Shown one piece after another: positions 2,043 through 10,558 of a stretch of 33,048 bases of DNA. A program made the translations under genes and the position numbers. The DNA is from an uncultured Acidobacteriota bacterium (GTDB taxonomy: Bacteria; Acidobacteriota; Vicinamibacteria; Vicinamibacterales; UBA2999). Every line of letters starts with the position of its first letter. Positions within the stretch are counted from its first letter, which is position 1. The DNA is taken from assembly GCA_902826065.1 (NCBI GenBank), contig CADEDM010000033.1, positions 1 through 33,048 of the forward strand. The letters are read 5' to 3'. The notes under the pieces are model-generated. The model did not search any database. It was not told the origin of the DNA and saw only the letters and a program-made list of their open reading frames with translations.

Positions 2043-2828
2043 CTACTTGCGTTCCTTGAGCGAGTAGCCGGCCGGCACGGCGAACATCGTGTCGTCGAGG
2101 GCGCCGGCCGACACCTCGGTCACGGTCGTGGTCGCGGTCATGCCGCCCATCTTCGCCAGCAGCCCGGCCATCGGGCCGCTGCCTTCCATCTTGATGCTGG
2201 TCTCGGTCTCGTACGCGATGCCGCCGATGTCGGCCATCTTGCGGTACATCTCCACCATCGCCTTCGACTGGCCGGGGCTGGCCTTCGCGGCGCGCGGGTC
2301 GCCGAAGATGAAGCCCTTCTCGGCGGCCTGCTTGTAGAAGGTGGCCCAGTCGGCCGTGCCCGGCGCGCCCTTCACGATCCACACCGGACCGGTGAGGTTG
2401 ACCATCATCTTCATCTCGCCGCCGCCCATCGTCGCGGGCACGCTCACGGCCATGTCGTAGCCGGCGGCGCTCTTCCCGCCGATCTCCTTGGTCTTGCCGT
2501 TGGACGTGATCTCGGCCTTCATCGCCGAGACGTCCACGTTCTTCGACATCTCGGCCTGGAACGCGCTCAGCGCGTAGACTTCGGCCTCTTTCTTCTTGAG
2601 GTCGAACGAGTACATCTTCTGGGCGTCGAGATCGATGATCGACACGAGCGTCTTGTCGCCCATCACCGTCTCGGTGCGCATCTTCGCGCCCTTGATGTAG
2701 GTGGTGCCCGTGGTCGTGCCGGACATCCCCATGCCCTTGCCGGTGGTGGTCTGCTTGATGGTGACGTCCGCCACGGCGGGAGCGGCGAGGGCGAGCGACA
2801 GGAACGAGACGAGAGCGGCGCGGCGCAT
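2043..2828 (-). CDS. Exported DUF4412-like protein
   Basis: 261 residues beginning MRRAALVSFLSLALAAPAVA, a clear Sec signal peptide, so the mature protein is periplasmic or secreted. The start at 2828 is fixed by AGGAGG nine bases upstream. The frame is open further upstream, but that part has no ribosome site. The mature part is Met- and Lys-rich (GKGMGMSGTTTGTTYIKGAKMRTE) and continues as beta-strand-like segments ending VPAGYSLKERK. This pattern (strand ladder, threonine-rich N-terminus, 'VPAGY' near the end) resembles the DUF4412 family of acidobacterial and bacteroidete exported proteins, which have no known function. It is transcribed in the same direction as the glycine-rich protein gene upstream, but a strong hairpin separates them, so it probably has its own promoter. 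The family assignment is by resemblance only. Confidence 0.75.
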   Translation of the reverse strand: MRRAALVSFLSLALAAPAVADVTIKQTTTGKGMGMSGTTTGTTYIKGAKMRTETVMGDKTLVSIIDLDAQKMYSFDLKKKEAEVYALSAFQAEMSKNVDVSAMKAEITSNGKTKEIGGKSAAGYDMAVSVPATMGGGEMKMMVNLTGPVWIVKGAPGTADWATFYKQAAEKGFIFGDPRAAKASPGQSKAMVEMYRKMADIGGIAYETETSIKMEGSGPMAGLLAKMGGMTATTTVTEVSAGALDDTMFAVPAGYSLKERK

Positions 2829-3014: not shown

Positions 3015-5660
3015 TTACTTTCGAATCGGGATGCCCATGGTGTCGTTCAGGAACGTCACGTTGGCATACAGGGTCTTCGCCGCGTTGAACGTGCCGCCGA
3101 GGCCGTTCGAGCACGACGTCCTCAACTGCCGGCCGGAGTGCGCCTCGATCTGCTTCAGCAGCGCCGCCAGGATGGCGGCGGCCCGCTTGTAGTCCCTGCG
3201 GTCGATGGCCACCTGCGCCTGCGACAGCGCCAGCTGATAGGACACCGTGATGGTGTGGTCGGCGATGCAGCCGAACTTCTCGTAGAAGTCGAGGGCCTTG
3301 CCGAGCGCGGCCGCCGTCATCGCGATGTTGAGCGTGAAGGGCGCCGTGCGCACGAGCGCGCCCGACGTGCCGCGGATCGTCATCGTGTAGCTGCCGGCGA
3401 GCACGGTCGGACCCGTGGTGATGTCGACCTGGCCGTTGACCGTGCCGCCGAACGGCGGCGTCACGCTCGGCGTGAGGTAGTTCATCGTCACGCCTGCCGG
3501 CACGTTCAGCGTGCTGAAGGTCACCGGCGCCGAGAACGACACGTTGGCCGTCACGGGAATCGTGCGCGGCTCCGTTTCGTTGGGCACCATCGTCGCCGTG
3601 TTCACGGGACCGACGGTGAAGTTGGGCGGCGGCGTGAAGTTGGCCGTCACCGCCTTCGTCATGTCCATCACCACAGTCGTCGTCAGCGCCATCGGGTCGG
3701 TGACGCCGCCTGACCAGCCCGTGAACGTGTAGCCCGGCGCCGCCGCGGCCGAGATGATGACGACGGTGTGCCGGTTCACGCCCGTGGCGCCCACTGGCGG
3801 CGTCGTCGAGCCTCCGGCCGCCGGATTGGCGACCATCGTCAGCGTGACCGGGTCGTCGTTCGAGACCCCGCCGACGATCGGGCATTCCATCTGCATCACC
3901 GGCGGGCCGAACACGCACAGCTCGAAGGCGCCGATGTCGTAGCCGCCTTCGGCGGGCCGATCCTGGCCGCGCTGGTCGCGGCCCAGGGCCACGTTCGGAT
4001 CGGCGGTGTTGATCGCCGGACTCGACAGCGGGATGCGCATCGTCGCCGTGCGGCCCTGGTTCATCTGCAGCGGCCCGAGCAGCGGATCCGCCGCGACGGC
4101 GATGCCGAGGCAGTTGTCGTTCTGCTCGATCAGGTTGCCGCGCATGTCGACGGCGATCGATCCGCCCAGCGAGCACTCCGCGGTGCCGTTGTCGGCGATG
4201 ATCGAGTTGTAGAGGCGCAGCACGGCGCGGCCGCGCCACTGCACGGCAACGAGCCCGGCGCCGAAGCCGGTGCCGTTGTTGCTCGCGATCGTCGAATGCG
4301 TGACGTTGAGCTCGCCGTCGACCGAGAAGAGCCCGGCGCCGCGATCGTTACCGTTGGGCGCCGCGCCGGACGCGCCGTTGCCTCCGCCGACGCCGCGCAC
4401 CGCGACGTTGCCGGTGAAGGTGCTGTTGCGCACCGTGACGACCCCGGCGTGATTGAAGATCGCGCCCCCCAGTCCGGCACCGCCGCCGCCGGTACCGCGC
4501 CGCCCGCCGCCACCGAACATGCCGGCCGATCCGCTGCCGCCGTCGTTCAGCGTTCCGTAGCCGGACGAGCCGCCGCCGGCACCGAAGCCGCCATCGCCGC
4601 CGTCGGCGCCGAAGACGTTGTCGCCCCAGCCGGCGCCGCCGCCGCCGCCGAAGCCGCCATTGCCGCCGTGACCGCCGTGCCGGCCGCCCGCGCCGCCGCC
4701 ACCGCCGTAGTCGCCGTGGCCACCGTCGCTGCTCGTCAGGATCGTCGTGCCGCCGCCGCCCCCGCCGCCGCCGGCGCAGGCGGCGGTGCCGCCGGTGCTG
4801 CCCACTCCGCCATTGCCGCCGCACGCGATGCCGCCGATGCGACTGCGCGCCTGGCGCAGCGTGCCGCCGCCGCCGCCGCCGTGCGCGTCGTTCCCCGAGC
4901 CCACGCACGCACCGAAGCCGTTGCCGCGCGACCCGCCGCCGCCCACGCCGCCCTCGCAGATCGTGAAGTCGCCGTCGGGGCGGCCGTGGCCGCCCATGCC
5001 GCCGCCGCCGCCGAAGGTGTTCTCGGCGCCCGACGATCCGGCGCCGTTGCCGCCCATCGCGATGTTGCCGACGAACGTGCTGTTCTCGACGAGGAGTTGC
5101 CCGCCGCCGACGTAGACGGCCCCGCCGGCGCCCAGTCCGCCGCCACCCCCGAAGCCGCCGTCGCCGCCGCGGGCCAGGAAGCCGCGGATGGTCATCTGGC
5201 GCAGGGTCAGACGGCCGCCGGTCCCCACCGCGAAGGCGCGCACCGCTGCCGGGCCGCCGTGCATCAGGATGGCGCCGTAGCCCTCGATGACGATGCCGCT
5301 CGTCACGAGCGGCGTCGCCGTGGGCCCGAACGGGTTCGTGGCGTCGTCGAGGACGGCATCGAGCTGCAGGGTCCCGCCCTGCGGCAGGATGATGATGTCG
5401 TCGCCCTTGCCGGGCAGGCACGACGTCGTCACCGTGCCGGTCTGTCCGCCCGCCGAGTAGACGGTGGCGATCGACGCGTCGAAGTTGGCGGCGAAGATCG
5501 CCTCCTGCAGCGAGCAGCCGGGTACTTTCGTCCCGATCTTCTGTTGCAGGGTCGTGACGTAGATGATGTTGGCCGCTGCCGGGGCGGCGCCGCCGAGCAA
5601 CAGAGTCAGCAAGGCGAGCCCACTCGCCATCCACGTCCGCATTCGGGTCCAGCAGGTCAT
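3015..5660 (-). CDS. Secreted glycine-rich beta-helix protein (CSLREA type) with InlB-like repeat and helical C-terminus
   Basis: 881 residues. The start at 5660 is set by GGAGG six bases upstream and a signal peptide (residues 1-30, cut near APAAA/N). Domains in order: a CSLQEAI motif at 49-55, the hallmark of CSLREA/parallel beta-helix surface proteins; a glycine-rich segment from about 160 to 400 with runs such as GGGGGG, interrupted by beta-helix rungs (NSTFVGN, NSTFTGN); a closing DQRGQDRP..DIGAFE motif (562-580) typical of choice-of-anchor-Q proteins; an InlB-type B-repeat (about 608-676, GYTFTGWSGG..TANF); an Ig-like strand region; and a helical C-terminal domain (about 783-845) resembling the FIMAH domain. 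It is probably a secreted or surface adhesin-like protein. It lies divergently upstream of the ECF sigma gene, which suggests but does not show regulation by it. Confidence 0.88.
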   Translation of the reverse strand: MTCWTRMRTWMASGLALLTLLLGGAAPAAANIIYVTTLQQKIGTKVPGCSLQEAIFAANFDASIATVYSAGGQTGTVTTSCLPGKGDDIIILPQGGTLQLDAVLDDATNPFGPTATPLVTSGIVIEGYGAILMHGGPAAVRAFAVGTGGRLTLRQMTIRGFLARGGDGGFGGGGGLGAGGAVYVGGGQLLVENSTFVGNIAMGGNGAGSSGAENTFGGGGGMGGHGRPDGDFTICEGGVGGGGSRGNGFGACVGSGNDAHGGGGGGTLRQARSRIGGIACGGNGGVGSTGGTAACAGGGGGGGGTTILTSSDGGHGDYGGGGGAGGRHGGHGGNGGFGGGGGAGWGDNVFGADGGDGGFGAGGGSSGYGTLNDGGSGSAGMFGGGGRRGTGGGGAGLGGAIFNHAGVVTVRNSTFTGNVAVRGVGGGNGASGAAPNGNDRGAGLFSVDGELNVTHSTIASNNGTGFGAGLVAVQWRGRAVLRLYNSIIADNGTAECSLGGSIAVDMRGNLIEQNDNCLGIAVAADPLLGPLQMNQGRTATMRIPLSSPAINTADPNVALGRDQRGQDRPAEGGYDIGAFELCVFGPPVMQMECPIVGGVSNDDPVTLTMVANPAAGGSTTPPVGATGVNRHTVVIISAAAAPGYTFTGWSGGVTDPMALTTTVVMDMTKAVTANFTPPPNFTVGPVNTATMVPNETEPRTIPVTANVSFSAPVTFSTLNVPAGVTMNYLTPSVTPPFGGTVNGQVDITTGPTVLAGSYTMTIRGTSGALVRTAPFTLNIAMTAAALGKALDFYEKFGCIADHTITVSYQLALSQAQVAIDRRDYKRAAAILAALLKQIEAHSGRQLRTSCSNGLGGTFNAAKTLYANVTFLNDTMGIPIRK

Positions 5661-5798
5661 GACGGTCCTCCGTGAAGTTTCCGGACGCCGCGCCGGCGAC
5701 CCGGGGGCACGGGTTCGGGCGTACTTCCGGAATCGCAAGGTCGCGATCGAATCCGGACACCGGGCTGCGATAGGCTGGGCCCCACGTCGGGCGTCGCC

Positions 5799-6386
5799 AT
5801 GACCGGACCCTCGCATTCCTCGCTCGGAACCCTGTTGGCGACGGCCGAGGGGCAGCCGGCGCCCGGCTCGGCGCTGTTCGCCGCGTTGTACGGCGAGTTG
5901 CACCGCATCGCCTCCCGCGAGCTACAGCGCCAGGGGTGGGGCGTTTCCCTCGGCGCGACGAGCCTGTTGCACGAGGCCTACCTCGACTTGTCGAAACGCG
6001 ACCCGGCCGCGTTTCCCGACAAGCCGCGATTCCTCGGCTACGCGTCGCGCGTCATGCGCGGCCTGATCGTCGACTACGCCCGGCACCGCCAGGCGGTGAA
6101 GCGGGGCGGGCGGTTCGAGCTCACCGGCCTGGCCGACAACGCCCAGGCGCTGCCGGCCGCGGCGGCGTCGGCCGACCTTGTCCGGATCAGCGACGCACTC
6201 GACGATCTCTCCAGCGTGGAACCCGTGCTCGCCGAGGTCGTCGACCTCAAGTACTTCTGTGGCTTCTCGTTCGAGGAGATCGCCGCCATGAAGGGCCTGT
6301 CGGAACGCACCGTGCGCCGGCACTGGACCAAGGCGCGCGCCTACCTGCACGACGCCCTGCGCGACGACGCGTCGCCCGGCGCCTGA
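5799..6386 (+). CDS. ECF sigma factor (TIGR02999/Sigma70_ECF family)
   Basis: 195 residues. Region 2 includes SLLHEAYLDLSK and RFLGYASRVMRGLIVDYARHR, the characteristic signature of the TIGR02999 (PF07638) ECF-like sigma factors common in Acidobacteria and Planctomycetes. Region 4 is VDLKYFCGFSFEEIAAMKGLSERTVRRHWTKARAYL, a helix-turn-helix that reads -35 elements. The stop is 11 bases before the ATG of a Ser/Thr kinase gene, so the two are almost certainly one operon. No anti-sigma factor gene is adjacent. In this family a co-encoded kinase often takes that control role; that is an inference here. The ATG at 5799 has no strong ribosome site. Confidence 0.93.
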   Translation: MTGPSHSSLGTLLATAEGQPAPGSALFAALYGELHRIASRELQRQGWGVSLGATSLLHEAYLDLSKRDPAAFPDKPRFLGYASRVMRGLIVDYARHRQAVKRGGRFELTGLADNAQALPAAAASADLVRISDALDDLSSVEPVLAEVVDLKYFCGFSFEEIAAMKGLSERTVRRHWTKARAYLHDALRDDASPGA

Positions 6387-6397
6387 GCCGCCACGAC

Positions 6398-9151
6398 ATG
6401 TCCGGGGATCGTCTGTCGCAGTGGCAGTCGGCGAGTCCGTACCTGGACACGGCGCTCGACCTGCCACCCGACGAGCGTGCCGCCTGGCTGGCGGAGCTGC
6501 GCCAGACCTCGCCCGCGATCGCCGCGGAGATCGAGCGCTGGCTGAACGAGTGCGCGCTGGTCGAGGCCACCGAGTTCCTCGAGCGCGACGCCACGCCCGA
6601 CCCGTCGCGCGCGGCTCTCGCCGGGGTCGACGTCGGTGCCTACCGGCTGACCTCGCTCGTTGGACACGGCGGCATGGGCACGGTGTGGCTGGCCGAGCGG
6701 ACCGACGGGCGCTTCACCGGCCGGGTCGCCGTGAAGCTGCTCAACCCGGCGCTGGTCGGACGTCGCGGCGAGGAGCGATTCGCGCAGGAGGGGCGCATCC
6801 TCGCCCGTCTCACCCATCCCGGCATCGCCCGCCTGGTCGACGCCGGCGTCACGGGCATCGGCCAGCCGTACCTCGCCCTCGAGTTCGTCGACGGCGTCCC
6901 GATCGACCGCCACTGCGATGCCCGCCGCCTCGACGTCGAGGCACGCCTGCGTCTCGTGCTCGACGTGCTCGACGCCGTGCAGGTGGCGCACAACCAGCTC
7001 GTCGTGCACCGCGACATCAAGCCGTCGAACGTGATGGTCACGACCGACGGCATCGTGAAGCTGCTCGACTTCGGCATCGCCCGGCTGCTCCAGCCCGATG
7101 CGCTCGACACGGCCGGTCTGACGCGCGACAGCCAGGCGATGCTGACACCCGCCTACGCCGCGCCCGAGCAGGTGAACAACGGCGACATCACGGTCGCGAC
7201 CGACGTCTATGCGCTGGGCGTGCTGGTCTACCTGCTGTTGACGGGGCGGCATCCCGCGGAGCCCGAGCTGAGCCGGCCCGCCAGCCTCATCCGCGCCATC
7301 ACCGACGTCGACCCGCCGCTGATGTCGACGCGCGTCGTCGACGCCGATCCGCGACTCACCGGCACGCCGGCCGCGAATGCCGAGGCCCGCGCCGCAACGC
7401 CCGCGCGCCTGCGCGAGACGCTGCGCGGCGACCTCGACGCCGTCGTCGCCAAGGCGCTGGCCAAGGCACCGGCGGCCCGCTACGCCAGCGCCGCCGTGAT
7501 GGCCGACGACCTGCGCCGGCACCTCGAGCGCCGGCCGGTGCTGGCGCGTCGCATCACCGCCGGGTATCGCCTGCGCCGCTTCGTGGCGCGCAATCGTGTC
7601 GCCGTGGGACTGAGCGCCGTGGCGGCGACGGCGCTGGTTGCTGGCACGGCCGCCACCGTCATCCAGGCGCGCCGGGTGGCCGTGGAGCGCGACTTCGCGC
7701 TGCGTCAGCTGTCACGGGCCGAGTCGATCGTGGAGATGAACCGCTTCCTGCTCACGGACGCGGCGCCGATGGGCCAGCCGTTCACGGCCGGCACGCTGCT
7801 GCGCCGTGCCGAGGAGCTGCTGACGCGTCGCGCGGCCGTCGCGGTCGATCAGAACGTCGTCGAGTCGCTGGCCGAAGTCGGTTTCCAGTACTGGTCGCAG
7901 GACGAAGACGACAACGCGCGCCGGGTGTTGACGCAGGCCTACGAGCTGTCGCGCCGGCTGCCGGCCAGCGCGGCGTCGACGCGCGCCAAGGCCGGATGCA
8001 GCCTGGCCTCGGCGCTCGCTCGCGGCGTGGACATCCCGCGCGCGCGGCAGCTCATCACCGAGGCGCTGGCCGAGATGCCGGCGGGCGAGTCGTTCACGCT
8101 CGACCACGTGGCGTGCCTCAAGGACGCCGCACGTGTCGCACGCGAAGCCGGCGACTCGGCCGCCGATCTCCGCTATCTCGAGGAAGCGCGGGTGCGCCTC
8201 GAGGCCTCGGGCCTTGGCTCCGACAACTCGAAGCTGAGCCTGGTGCTGGAGCTCGCGGACGCGTCACGGACGGCCGGGCGCAGCACCGAGGCCAGCCGGC
8301 TGTTCGAGGACGCCTTCGCGCAGTTGACGTCACTCGGGCGCGATCGCACCGAGGAAGCCGGCACGCTGCTGAACAACTGGGGCCTGGCGCTGTCGTTCCT
8401 GGGCCGGCCGCGCGATGCCGAGAAGGCCTACCGGCAGGCGGTCGAGATCTCGCAGGCCACCGCCGACGGCGAGAGCGTGTCGCCGATGCTGCTGTTGAAC
8501 CTGGCGCGCCCGGTGCTCGAACTCGATCACGCCGACGAGGCGATCGCGCTGGTCGAACGCGCGCTTGCAGAGGCCCGCCGGCTCAAGGACGAAGTGGTGA
8601 AGAACCAGGCGCTGTTGTTCGGCGCGGTCGCCTATCGTGCGAAACGCGACGCGACGCGCGCCACGGCGTTGCTCGACGAGGCCGACACCGCCTTGCGACA
8701 GGTGCTGCCGCCCGACCACCCGGCCTTCGGCGCGATTGCCGAACAGCGAGCCGAGGATCTGGAACGCGCCGGCCGGCTGGCCGAAGCGCGGGTCGAGACC
8801 GATCGTGCGATGGCGTACGCGACCGGCAGCTCGCAGGGCGCGGGACTGGTGCGAACCGTGCTCTACCGTCGCGCCTCGATCGCGCTCGCGTCCGGCAACG
8901 CCGCGGCCGCCGTGGAGGATGCCCAGGCGGTCGTGCAGCAGATGACGGCGCGGCTGGGTACGGGCATCCGCGCGTCCAACCTCGGCCGCGTGCACCTGTT
9001 CCTGGGCCGGGCGCAGCTCGCCGCCGGTCGCCGCGCCGACGCGCGGACGTCGTTCGAGGAGGCGGCGGCGCATTTCGACGCGACTCTGACGCCCGACCAC
9101 CGCGAGTCACGCGAGGCGCGGGACTGGCTGGCACGCGCGTCTCAGCCGTGA
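6398..9151 (+). CDS. Transmembrane Ser/Thr protein kinase with TPR-like C-terminus
   Basis: 917 residues from the ATG at 6398. The reading frame is open upstream but overlaps the sigma gene, and the family-typical N-terminus begins here. Kinase domain about 82-380: glycine loop GHGGMGTVW (89-97), ATP-binding K113, catalytic HRDIKPSN (204-211, D206), DFG (224-226), APEQ (255-258). All key residues are present, so it should be active. One transmembrane helix spans about 401-423. The C-terminal ~490 residues are TPR-like helical repeats, predicted to lie outside the cytoplasm, perhaps for protein or ligand sensing. It is encoded directly after the ECF sigma factor, with which it probably forms one signalling unit, and is paralogous to the kinase at the window start. 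Confidence 0.94.
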   Translation: MSGDRLSQWQSASPYLDTALDLPPDERAAWLAELRQTSPAIAAEIERWLNECALVEATEFLERDATPDPSRAALAGVDVGAYRLTSLVGHGGMGTVWLAERTDGRFTGRVAVKLLNPALVGRRGEERFAQEGRILARLTHPGIARLVDAGVTGIGQPYLALEFVDGVPIDRHCDARRLDVEARLRLVLDVLDAVQVAHNQLVVHRDIKPSNVMVTTDGIVKLLDFGIARLLQPDALDTAGLTRDSQAMLTPAYAAPEQVNNGDITVATDVYALGVLVYLLLTGRHPAEPELSRPASLIRAITDVDPPLMSTRVVDADPRLTGTPAANAEARAATPARLRETLRGDLDAVVAKALAKAPAARYASAAVMADDLRRHLERRPVLARRITAGYRLRRFVARNRVAVGLSAVAATALVAGTAATVIQARRVAVERDFALRQLSRAESIVEMNRFLLTDAAPMGQPFTAGTLLRRAEELLTRRAAVAVDQNVVESLAEVGFQYWSQDEDDNARRVLTQAYELSRRLPASAASTRAKAGCSLASALARGVDIPRARQLITEALAEMPAGESFTLDHVACLKDAARVAREAGDSAADLRYLEEARVRLEASGLGSDNSKLSLVLELADASRTAGRSTEASRLFEDAFAQLTSLGRDRTEEAGTLLNNWGLALSFLGRPRDAEKAYRQAVEISQATADGESVSPMLLLNLARPVLELDHADEAIALVERALAEARRLKDEVVKNQALLFGAVAYRAKRDATRATALLDEADTALRQVLPPDHPAFGAIAEQRAEDLERAGRLAEARVETDRAMAYATGSSQGAGLVRTVLYRRASIALASGNAAAAVEDAQAVVQQMTARLGTGIRASNLGRVHLFLGRAQLAAGRRADARTSFEEAAAHFDATLTPDHRESREARDWLARASQP

Positions 9152-9349: not shown

Positions 9350-10558
9350 ATGGACCCGTCCGTCGACACCTCCGGCCATCGTCTGCTCATCATCGACGAC
9401 GACCCCTCGATTGGCGCGATGATCGCGCGCGTGGCGGCTCGCGCCGGCTATCAGACGCTGGTCGTGTCGACGCCCGACGACTTCCTGCAGCGCGTGCGGA
9501 TCTGGGCGCCGACGCACATCGTGATGGACCTGCAGATGCCGGTGGTCGACGGCCTGGAGCTCCTGTCGCAGCTGGCGTCGGATCACAGCACCGCGCGCAT
9601 CATCCTGATCAGCGGCGCCGGTGATCGCGTGGTCGATGCCGCCCGCCGGGTCGGCACCGCGCGGGGCTTGTCGGTCACGGCGGCGCTCAACAAGCCGTTC
9701 AGCATCGCCGAGCTCGAGTCGGTGCTGCAGGCCAACCGGCTCGAGGATCCGTGGCTCACCGTGGCCAATCTCTCGGCCGCCATCGAGCGCGACGAGTTCT
9801 TCCTCCTCTATCAGCCGCAGGTCGATCTGCGCTCCGGCGCGGTGCCCGCAGCCGAGGCGCTGGTGCGCTGGCGGCACCCGGTGCGCGGCGTCGTCTCGCC
9901 GCTCGAGTTCATTCCGTTCGCGGAGTCGTCGGCCTGCATCGACCGCATGACGCAGTGGATCGTGGGCGCCGGGTGCGCGCAGCTGCGGCGGTGGGATGGC
10001 ATGGGCATGGCGATGCGTCTCGCCATCAACCTCTCGGCCCGGAACCTGCACGAGGCGCGGCTCGGCGATCAGCTCGAGGCGCAGTGCCGCGGTGCCGGCG
10101 TCGATCCGTCGCGGCTCACCTTCGAGCTGACCGAGACCGCGGCGATGCGCGACGCCACGCTCATGACCGACGTGCTGACGCGTCTGCGCGTCAAGGGCTT
10201 CGGCCTGTCGATCGACGACTTCGGCACCGGCTACTCCTCGCTCGTCCTGCTGCACCGCCTGCCGTTCACCGAGCTGAAGGTCGACCGCTCGTTCGTCTCG
10301 ACCTGCCTCACCTCGAAGGAGAGCCGGGCGATCGTCCGGCACGTCGTGGATCTGGCCCACGCCCTGCACCTGCACGCCGTCGCCGAGGGCGTCGAGTCGG
10401 CCGAGGTGATGCGTCTGCTGCGCGAGCTGGACTGCGACGCGGCCCAGGGCACCTTCGTCGCGCTGCCCCTCGAAGCCGACCAGGTGCCGGACATGGTGCG
10501 CGGCCATGCTGACGCGCCGTGGTATCGCGCCGGCGCGCCCTGGGCCGTGGCTGGCTGA
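9350..10558 (+). CDS. Response regulator with EAL c-di-GMP phosphodiesterase domain
   Basis: 402 residues in the RocR-like order REC-EAL. The receiver domain (about 11-125) has the acidic pair IIDDD, phospho-acceptor D60 (HIVMDLQMP) and a conserved Lys (LNKPF, K115). The EAL domain (about 135-390) has every catalytic residue one looks for: E169 of EAL, N228 (INLS), ELTE (E259 and E262), DD at 289-290 (IDDFGTGYSS), K310 (ELKVD), E347 (AEGVE) and Q366. It should therefore hydrolyse c-di-GMP to pGpG, with phosphorylation tuning activity. No histidine kinase is adjacent, so the partner is elsewhere. A TTG 51 bases upstream is a possible alternative start, but the receiver domain aligns well from the ATG at 9350. 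Confidence 0.93.
   Translation: MDPSVDTSGHRLLIIDDDPSIGAMIARVAARAGYQTLVVSTPDDFLQRVRIWAPTHIVMDLQMPVVDGLELLSQLASDHSTARIILISGAGDRVVDAARRVGTARGLSVTAALNKPFSIAELESVLQANRLEDPWLTVANLSAAIERDEFFLLYQPQVDLRSGAVPAAEALVRWRHPVRGVVSPLEFIPFAESSACIDRMTQWIVGAGCAQLRRWDGMGMAMRLAINLSARNLHEARLGDQLEAQCRGAGVDPSRLTFELTETAAMRDATLMTDVLTRLRVKGFGLSIDDFGTGYSSLVLLHRLPFTELKVDRSFVSTCLTSKESRAIVRHVVDLAHALHLHAVAEGVESAEVMRLLRELDCDAAQGTFVALPLEADQVPDMVRGHADAPWYRAGAPWAVAG

Follow-up and report, generated by a model that had tools for sequence, protein, structure and literature searches.

An exported protein of a known family, probably under a phospho-gated ECF sigma switch: congeneric acidobacterial species have different cargo in the same slot

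The window, which is the whole stretch of DNA analysed here (33,048 nucleotides, the entire contig C33 of a 5.65 Mb genome in 416 contigs), encodes an exported protein of a known family, and its gene is divergent from an ECF sigma factor gene that is followed by a Ser/Thr kinase gene. We consider it rather likely that the sigma-kinase pair is a local, ECF43-like phospho-gated switch for the exported protein, with the cargo being exchanged between loci. A preliminary description of this DNA had named an exported protein of 881 residues, a glycine-rich block of about 240 residues within it, an InlB-like repeat, an intergenic region of 138 bases shared with the sigma gene, and an ECF sigma-kinase pair. 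All five were recovered, and the features of the locus are as follows:

2043–2828, minus strand: DUF4412 protein, the left border of the slot (72% identity to its counterpart in the congeneric genome G001)
3015–5660, minus strand: exported 881-residue choice-of-anchor-Q protein with a glycine-rich block, the cargo (translation, NF041518, PF18998)
3018–3293, minus strand: C-terminal tail of the same protein, residues 790–881 (no family above cut-off)
3630–3836, minus strand: its InlB-like repeat, PF18998 (profile match)
3918–4088, minus strand: its choice-of-anchor Q domain (NF041518)
4446–5168, minus strand: its glycine-rich block, residues 165–405 (composition, 47% Gly)
5571–5660, minus strand: its signal peptide region, residues 1–30 (by eye)
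5661–5798, no strand: divergent intergenic region of 138 bases between the cargo and sigma genes
5667–5671, minus strand: GGAGG, resembling a ribosome-binding site, 6 nt 5′ of the cargo ATG
5731–5759, minus strand: promoter-like element TGTCCGG-N17-CGATT, directed toward the cargo gene, 70 nt 5′ of its ATG
5799–6386, plus strand: ECF sigma factor (P0002), 195 aa, with region 2.2 motif GATS-LLHE and Thr54 (TIGR02999, PF07638)
6398–9151, plus strand: Ser/Thr kinase, 917 aa, with C-terminal TPRs and, as seen by eye, a membrane segment (PF00069, TPR models)
9350–10558, plus strand: response regulator with an EAL domain, the right neighbour (syntenic, 68% identity in G001)

At 3–2024 on the plus strand, the window also encodes a second Ser/Thr kinase (PF00069, 57 bits), of which the C-terminal part is present; the gene is cut by the contig start, and its upstream region lies off the contig.

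The sigma factor scores 153 bits against TIGR02999 (cut-off 126.15), and hence belongs to that family, and 114 bits against PF07638; it was classed by these two models only, its likeness to ECF43 being judged without an ECF43 group model. Two features of the ECF43 type are present. First, a Hanks-type kinase gene adjoins the sigma gene: it starts 11 nt 3′ of it, its product gives 121.5 bits against PF00069 together with TPR matches above cut-off, and the best solved match is 9EED, the kinase domain of PknS (E 9.8e-50). Second, the acidic residues of the DxxD motif in region 2.2 are replaced, and a threonine occupies the phosphosite (GATS-LLHE). The sigma clade has 26 members including the window's own, in 15 of the 162 genomes of the order (E up to 1e-45, at least 51% identity). 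Among 25 members inspected, three of them truncated or unread, all 22 readable sequences have Thr at the phospho position and have lost the first acidic position; two of the 22 carry an acidic fourth position (GATE), comparable to QATE in EcfK. Thr54 is kept in 8 of 8 aligned sigmas. At one locus (L049), the sigma copy (G033:C139) is broken by a stop codon; the kinase and the YadA-head-family gene there look open.

The covered passages of PMC8999054 and PMC13147305 describe how, in the EcfP/PknT and EcfK/PknS pairs, region 2.2 of the sigma has other residues in place of all or some of the acidic ones and contains a Thr that is phosphorylated by the kinase of the adjacent gene; EcfK has additional phosphorylation sites in its linker, and the targets reported for the two pairs are polymyxin resistance and a T6SS. 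The covered passages of the Solibacter paralogue paper (PMC3174227) contain nothing on sigma-kinase targets. For the window, we propose that the membrane kinase would sense something outside the cell via its TPR part and would phosphorylate the ECF sigma at Thr54 of region 2.2, with phospho-Thr54 supplying the negative charge that the sigma lacks for binding RNA polymerase. The active sigma, presumably the adjacent one among its relatives, would then transcribe the divergent gene from the TGTCCGG-N17-CGATT element, and the product would probably reside at the cell surface. The regulators and the promoter would remain fixed and the cargo would be exchanged, being of a YadA-head/S74 type in G001 and of the glycine-rich choice-of-anchor-Q type in the window.

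Synteny with G001 supports the notion of a slot. In addition to the DUF4412 and response regulator-EAL genes listed above, the sigma (82% identity), the kinase (56%) and the next gene, which is transporter-like (65%), are found in the same order in this congeneric genome. In G001, the space between DUF4412 and the sigma is taken up by three paralogues in tandem together with a 207-aa gene, and there is a further insertion, of a 991-aa gene, 3′ of the kinase; the one paralogue scanned of the three combines YadA_head with Peptidase_S74. In the corresponding position, a paralogous locus of the window's genome (G000:C81) encodes three proteins in tandem, of which the one scanned has CarboxypepD_reg and fn3 domains. 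When the 26 clade loci of the order were inspected by eye, a YadA-head-family gene was found near the sigma-kinase pair at seven, a methyltransferase-like gene instead at six, and unrelated genes at the others. Thus, an exported cargo at clade loci is common, not universal. The methyltransferase-like gene, whose product starts with VWSxGGxxYDxIS, occurs at L038, L039, L040, L042, L051 and L080 in varying orientation, and represents another class of partner.

With its N-terminal part as query, the YadA-head family yields 77 matches in five genomes of the genus, with up to 24 copies per genome. At L035 (4587–9074, reverse complement), the member begins with an N-terminal part bearing SLGTFxWQLxPxCN, which is followed by YadA_head repeats and a Peptidase_S74 chaperone; this N-terminal part had no Pfam match in the one member scanned. 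The same five genomes contain 84 TIGR02999 sigmas above cut-off, so that such sigmas are numerous in the genus. Within 6 kb of one of them lie 37 of the 77 YadA-head-family genes (19 of 52 clusters, at 19 of the 84 sigmas), against a chance expectation of 3.4–5.5% per gene, which is an upper bound; contig ends can only hide sigma-family pairs in this count.

The promoter-like element was spotted by eye in 33 regions upstream of YadA-head-family genes, as TGTC[CG]GG and CG[ACT][AT] separated by 16 or 17 bases. A spacing of 16–17 bases is that of ECF promoters. The stricter form, which was searched for in the window and across the genus, is TGTCSGGNTY-N13/14-CGMTY. A slightly wider pattern matches 11 of the 33 regions (mean 0.04 and maximum 1 in 200 dinucleotide shuffles; none on the opposite strand), a figure that describes more than it tests because those regions, together with the site in the window, supplied the pattern. 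Among 171 genes of the window and 20 sigma loci, it stands before two, namely the gene of the 881-residue protein and one YadA-head-family gene. The stricter pattern has 0.01 occurrences expected in the window by shuffles and two found: the site at 5731–5759, and a copy inside the sigma gene, which we take as chance. Upstream of the sigma gene, there is no copy on that gene's own strand. An unsupervised EM motif search missed the element and settled on coding sequence 5′ of co-directional genes.

The five genomes of the genus contain 22 element sites (seven for the reversed pattern), with 12 within genes and 10 intergenic. Every one of the 10 intergenic sites is followed by a gene start 22–136 nt on, the gene being of an exported type in nine cases and a sigma-linked kinase in one; six of the 10, including the window's and that of its syntenic partner, shaped the pattern, and four are independent, two of these in loci already used. 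Sites before a gene start thus make up 10 of 22 in the genus versus 1 of 30 sampled in non-carriers, that is, genomes without the sigma clade (Fisher p 0.0003); with independent genus sites only, the comparison is 4 of 16 versus 1 of 30 (Fisher p 0.043). A control with the wrong spacing (N18,19) gave eight sites, two of which are one sequence on two contigs; seven lie in genes, one at a contig edge and none before a gene start. The CGTA variant gave 17 sites versus two for its reversed pattern. Fifteen of these lie between genes and ahead of a gene start, four of them being known beforehand, and 12 of the 15 precede exported-looking genes, judged by eye or by family, with seven belonging to the YadA-head family. 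The earlier suggestion that the sigma-kinase pair may control the surface protein is hence strengthened by a candidate promoter in the gap, counterparts of which precede exported-type genes at further sigma-kinase loci of the genus. The element is also found 5′ of kinase genes at two sigma-kinase loci, G004:C59:16846 (L190) and L308, which hints at autoregulation.

These same data bear on which sigma is at work. The window's own genome (G000) encodes 24 TIGR02999 sigmas above cut-off, several of which could share a common regulon, such that a distant paralogue drives the exported gene and the adjacency is historical. This would accommodate the 40 of 77 YadA-head-family genes that have no sigma within 6 kb, one of whose contigs (G000:C231) has the element. 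However, sigma-kinase loci are where the sites cluster, and their −10 part varies with the sigma clade of the locus (CGMT versus CGTA); we therefore regard a shared regulon as unlikely, albeit the most serious of the alternatives.

The conservation of the slot does not extend to the protein within it. None of 98 relatives has a full-length homologue of the 881-residue protein, with weak partial matches in three, and a search of a genome-contig collection gave no full-length homologue either, the 21 stretches that fit a pattern there including no relative. Counting that of the window, 34 of the order's 162 genomes encode NF041518 proteins. Their neighbourhoods were examined at 40 loci, 39 of them holding 43 of the 46 other NF041518 matches and one holding a glycine-rich protein (G051:C133); by profiles built in this analysis, and with 37 of the 40 evaluable, a sigma was seen at none and a kinase at one, four genes off. 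The protein at the additional locus (L151, G051:C133 1–10042) is 1449 aa long with 21% glycine, matches residues 116–510 of the window protein, and constitutes another glycine-rich block in the order. Furthermore, at 25 TIGR02999 loci exported proteins are not in excess among the neighbours (12 of 45 versus 30 of 133, p 0.68), by a crude signal-peptide heuristic that overlooks evident signal peptides such as those at L035 and L036. All of this would fit an unremarkable exported protein of the choice-of-anchor-Q kind, placed next to a sigma-kinase pair by coincidence. Against such chance neighbourhood stand the promoter-like element in the gap, for which shuffles predict only 0.01 occurrences per window, and the G001 slot, which also holds exported proteins; we judge it improbable. 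With regard to the preliminary description, the gene order that it proposed to check in other Vicinamibacteria is not conserved for this protein but is conserved for the slot, in the congeneric G001. It had named an unconserved order together with a gap devoid of a sigma-dependent promoter as the outcome that would speak against it: the former was observed, and the gap contains a promoter-like element.

As for the protein itself, its export was judged from a signal peptide seen by eye, without a predictor. Glycine makes up 47% of residues 165–405, a block of 241 residues, versus 22% of the whole protein. Residues 525–581 match NF041518 (64.9 bits, cut-off 25), which places it among the choice-of-anchor Q proteins, and residues 609–677 match the InlB-like repeat PF18998 (34.5 bits, cut-off 23.6). 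For the beta-helix rungs named in the preliminary description, model PF13229 gives a weak match under its cut-off (12.8 bits versus 25.9, E 0.091). AlphaFold2 without homologues returned mean pLDDT values of 36.1 for residues 31–601 and 35.5 for residues 601–881, which are too low to inform, and a search for relatives of solved structure found none at E up to 0.1. No known sorting signal was recognised.

The family labels initially attached to this protein fared unevenly, and those of PE_PGRS, CSLREA and FIMAH were rejected or found no backing in profile searches. The DIGAFE end corresponds to the choice-of-anchor Q domain; the CSLREA start was not confirmed, as TIGR04214 scores 10.8 bits against a cut-off of 25 (E 0.34) and aligns over positions 14–27 of 27 only. 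For the supposed FIMAH-like tail, there was no FIMAH match in Pfam at E up to 1 with the whole protein or up to 10 with the tail alone, and no family was above its cut-off in residues 790–881. The likeness to mycobacterial PE_PGRS proteins holds for glycine composition only. That the protein is PE_PGRS-like and works as in mycobacteria, as its 47% Gly block with GG-rich runs might suggest, is highly implausible, given that no PE domain is matched in Pfam at E up to 1, that a signal peptide, a choice-of-anchor Q domain and an InlB-like repeat are found instead, and that there is no solved relative at the threshold given above.

Beyond the genus, we considered the best 80 of 135 sigma-clade relatives found in the genome-contig collection. 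Among these best 80 of 135 loci, the wider pattern has 14 sites versus 0–3 for four control patterns, and 12 of the 14 lie between 0.4 kb before and 6 kb after the sigma start; one is inside a sigma gene and two have no long ORF following. A Burkholderiales MAG (L289) has a 52% identical sigma, the element, and a divergent RCC1-repeat protein of 863 aa, encoded on the minus strand from about 9792 downwards, with a similar ORF behind it. In an uncultured acidobacterium, the element and a divergent protein that looks PEP-CTERM-like by eye lie beside a sigma-clade member, and the element is also present at a betaproteobacterial sigma-clade locus.

Site counts across the order are less discriminating. 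Eleven carrier genomes have 63 sites versus 74 in 11 non-carriers, which does not separate the carriers, and the motif count was rejected as a marker of sigma-clade genomes. The reversed pattern is a weak control here, since non-carriers also exceed it (74 versus 30). The one difference is in position: among 30 sampled sites from each group, eight are intergenic in carriers and two in non-carriers, and exported-looking genes follow four of the eight and neither of the two. Sigma-clade loci that include 2 kb of upstream sequence number 65; at 28 of these the longest ORF is divergent, and seven of the 28 look exported. The 65 loci were drawn from the best 80 of 135, and the count uses raw ORFs, which misjudge high-GC loci including that of G001. 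Thus, within the genus the arrangement is strong for a single cargo family, and in other places it is sporadic.

Taken together, these observations also allow a broader reading, which we put forward tentatively. The phospho-gated ECF sigma, the sensor kinase and a TGTCSGG-N16/17-CGNT promoter may form a fixed socket, and the locus would then be one of several related plug-in cassettes in which exported repeat proteins unrelated to one another (YadA-head, CarboxypepD/fn3, RCC1, glycine-rich choice-of-anchor-Q) replace each other; an acidobacterial genome could in this way run several separately sensed surface programmes, with the same socket in Betaproteobacteria. To our knowledge, there are no reported targets for TIGR02999 sigmas in Acidobacteriota, and the literature searched, which mostly excludes subscription papers, contains no report of this combination of sigma-kinase pair, element and exported protein. 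With a candidate promoter, a predicted phosphosite and exported proteins of a linked class, such pairs become a regulon open to testing. In addition, the exchange of cargo suggests a way of replacing surface proteins that leaves the wiring of the switch as it is.

Among known proteins, the product of the window gene resembles other choice-of-anchor Q proteins in having the NF041518 domain above cut-off in a secreted protein; unlike them, it has a glycine block before the domain, and the InlB-like repeat and tail after it. With the PE_PGRS proteins of mycobacteria it shares a glycine-rich low-complexity block, whereas PE is absent, a signal peptide is present and the flanking domains are others. 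The YadA-head/Peptidase_S74 cargo of G001 occupies the same slot behind the same promoter-like element, but its domains are different and no shared family was found. The closest known regulators are EcfP/PknT of Vibrio parahaemolyticus and EcfK/PknS of Xanthomonas citri, in which an ECF43 sigma is paired with a Hanks-type kinase, much as the window pairs its sigma with a Ser/Thr kinase gene. As in EcfP and EcfK, region 2.2 of the window sigma has other residues in place of the acidic ones and a Thr at the site that is phosphorylated in those two; the window kinase resembles PknS in its N-terminal extension, membrane segment and C-terminal TPRs, and its kinase domain is closest to that of 9EED. 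Phosphorylation is here a prediction, and unlike the targets described for EcfP and EcfK in the passages covered, loci of the window type are linked to exported repeat proteins and to a TGTCSGG/CGNT element.
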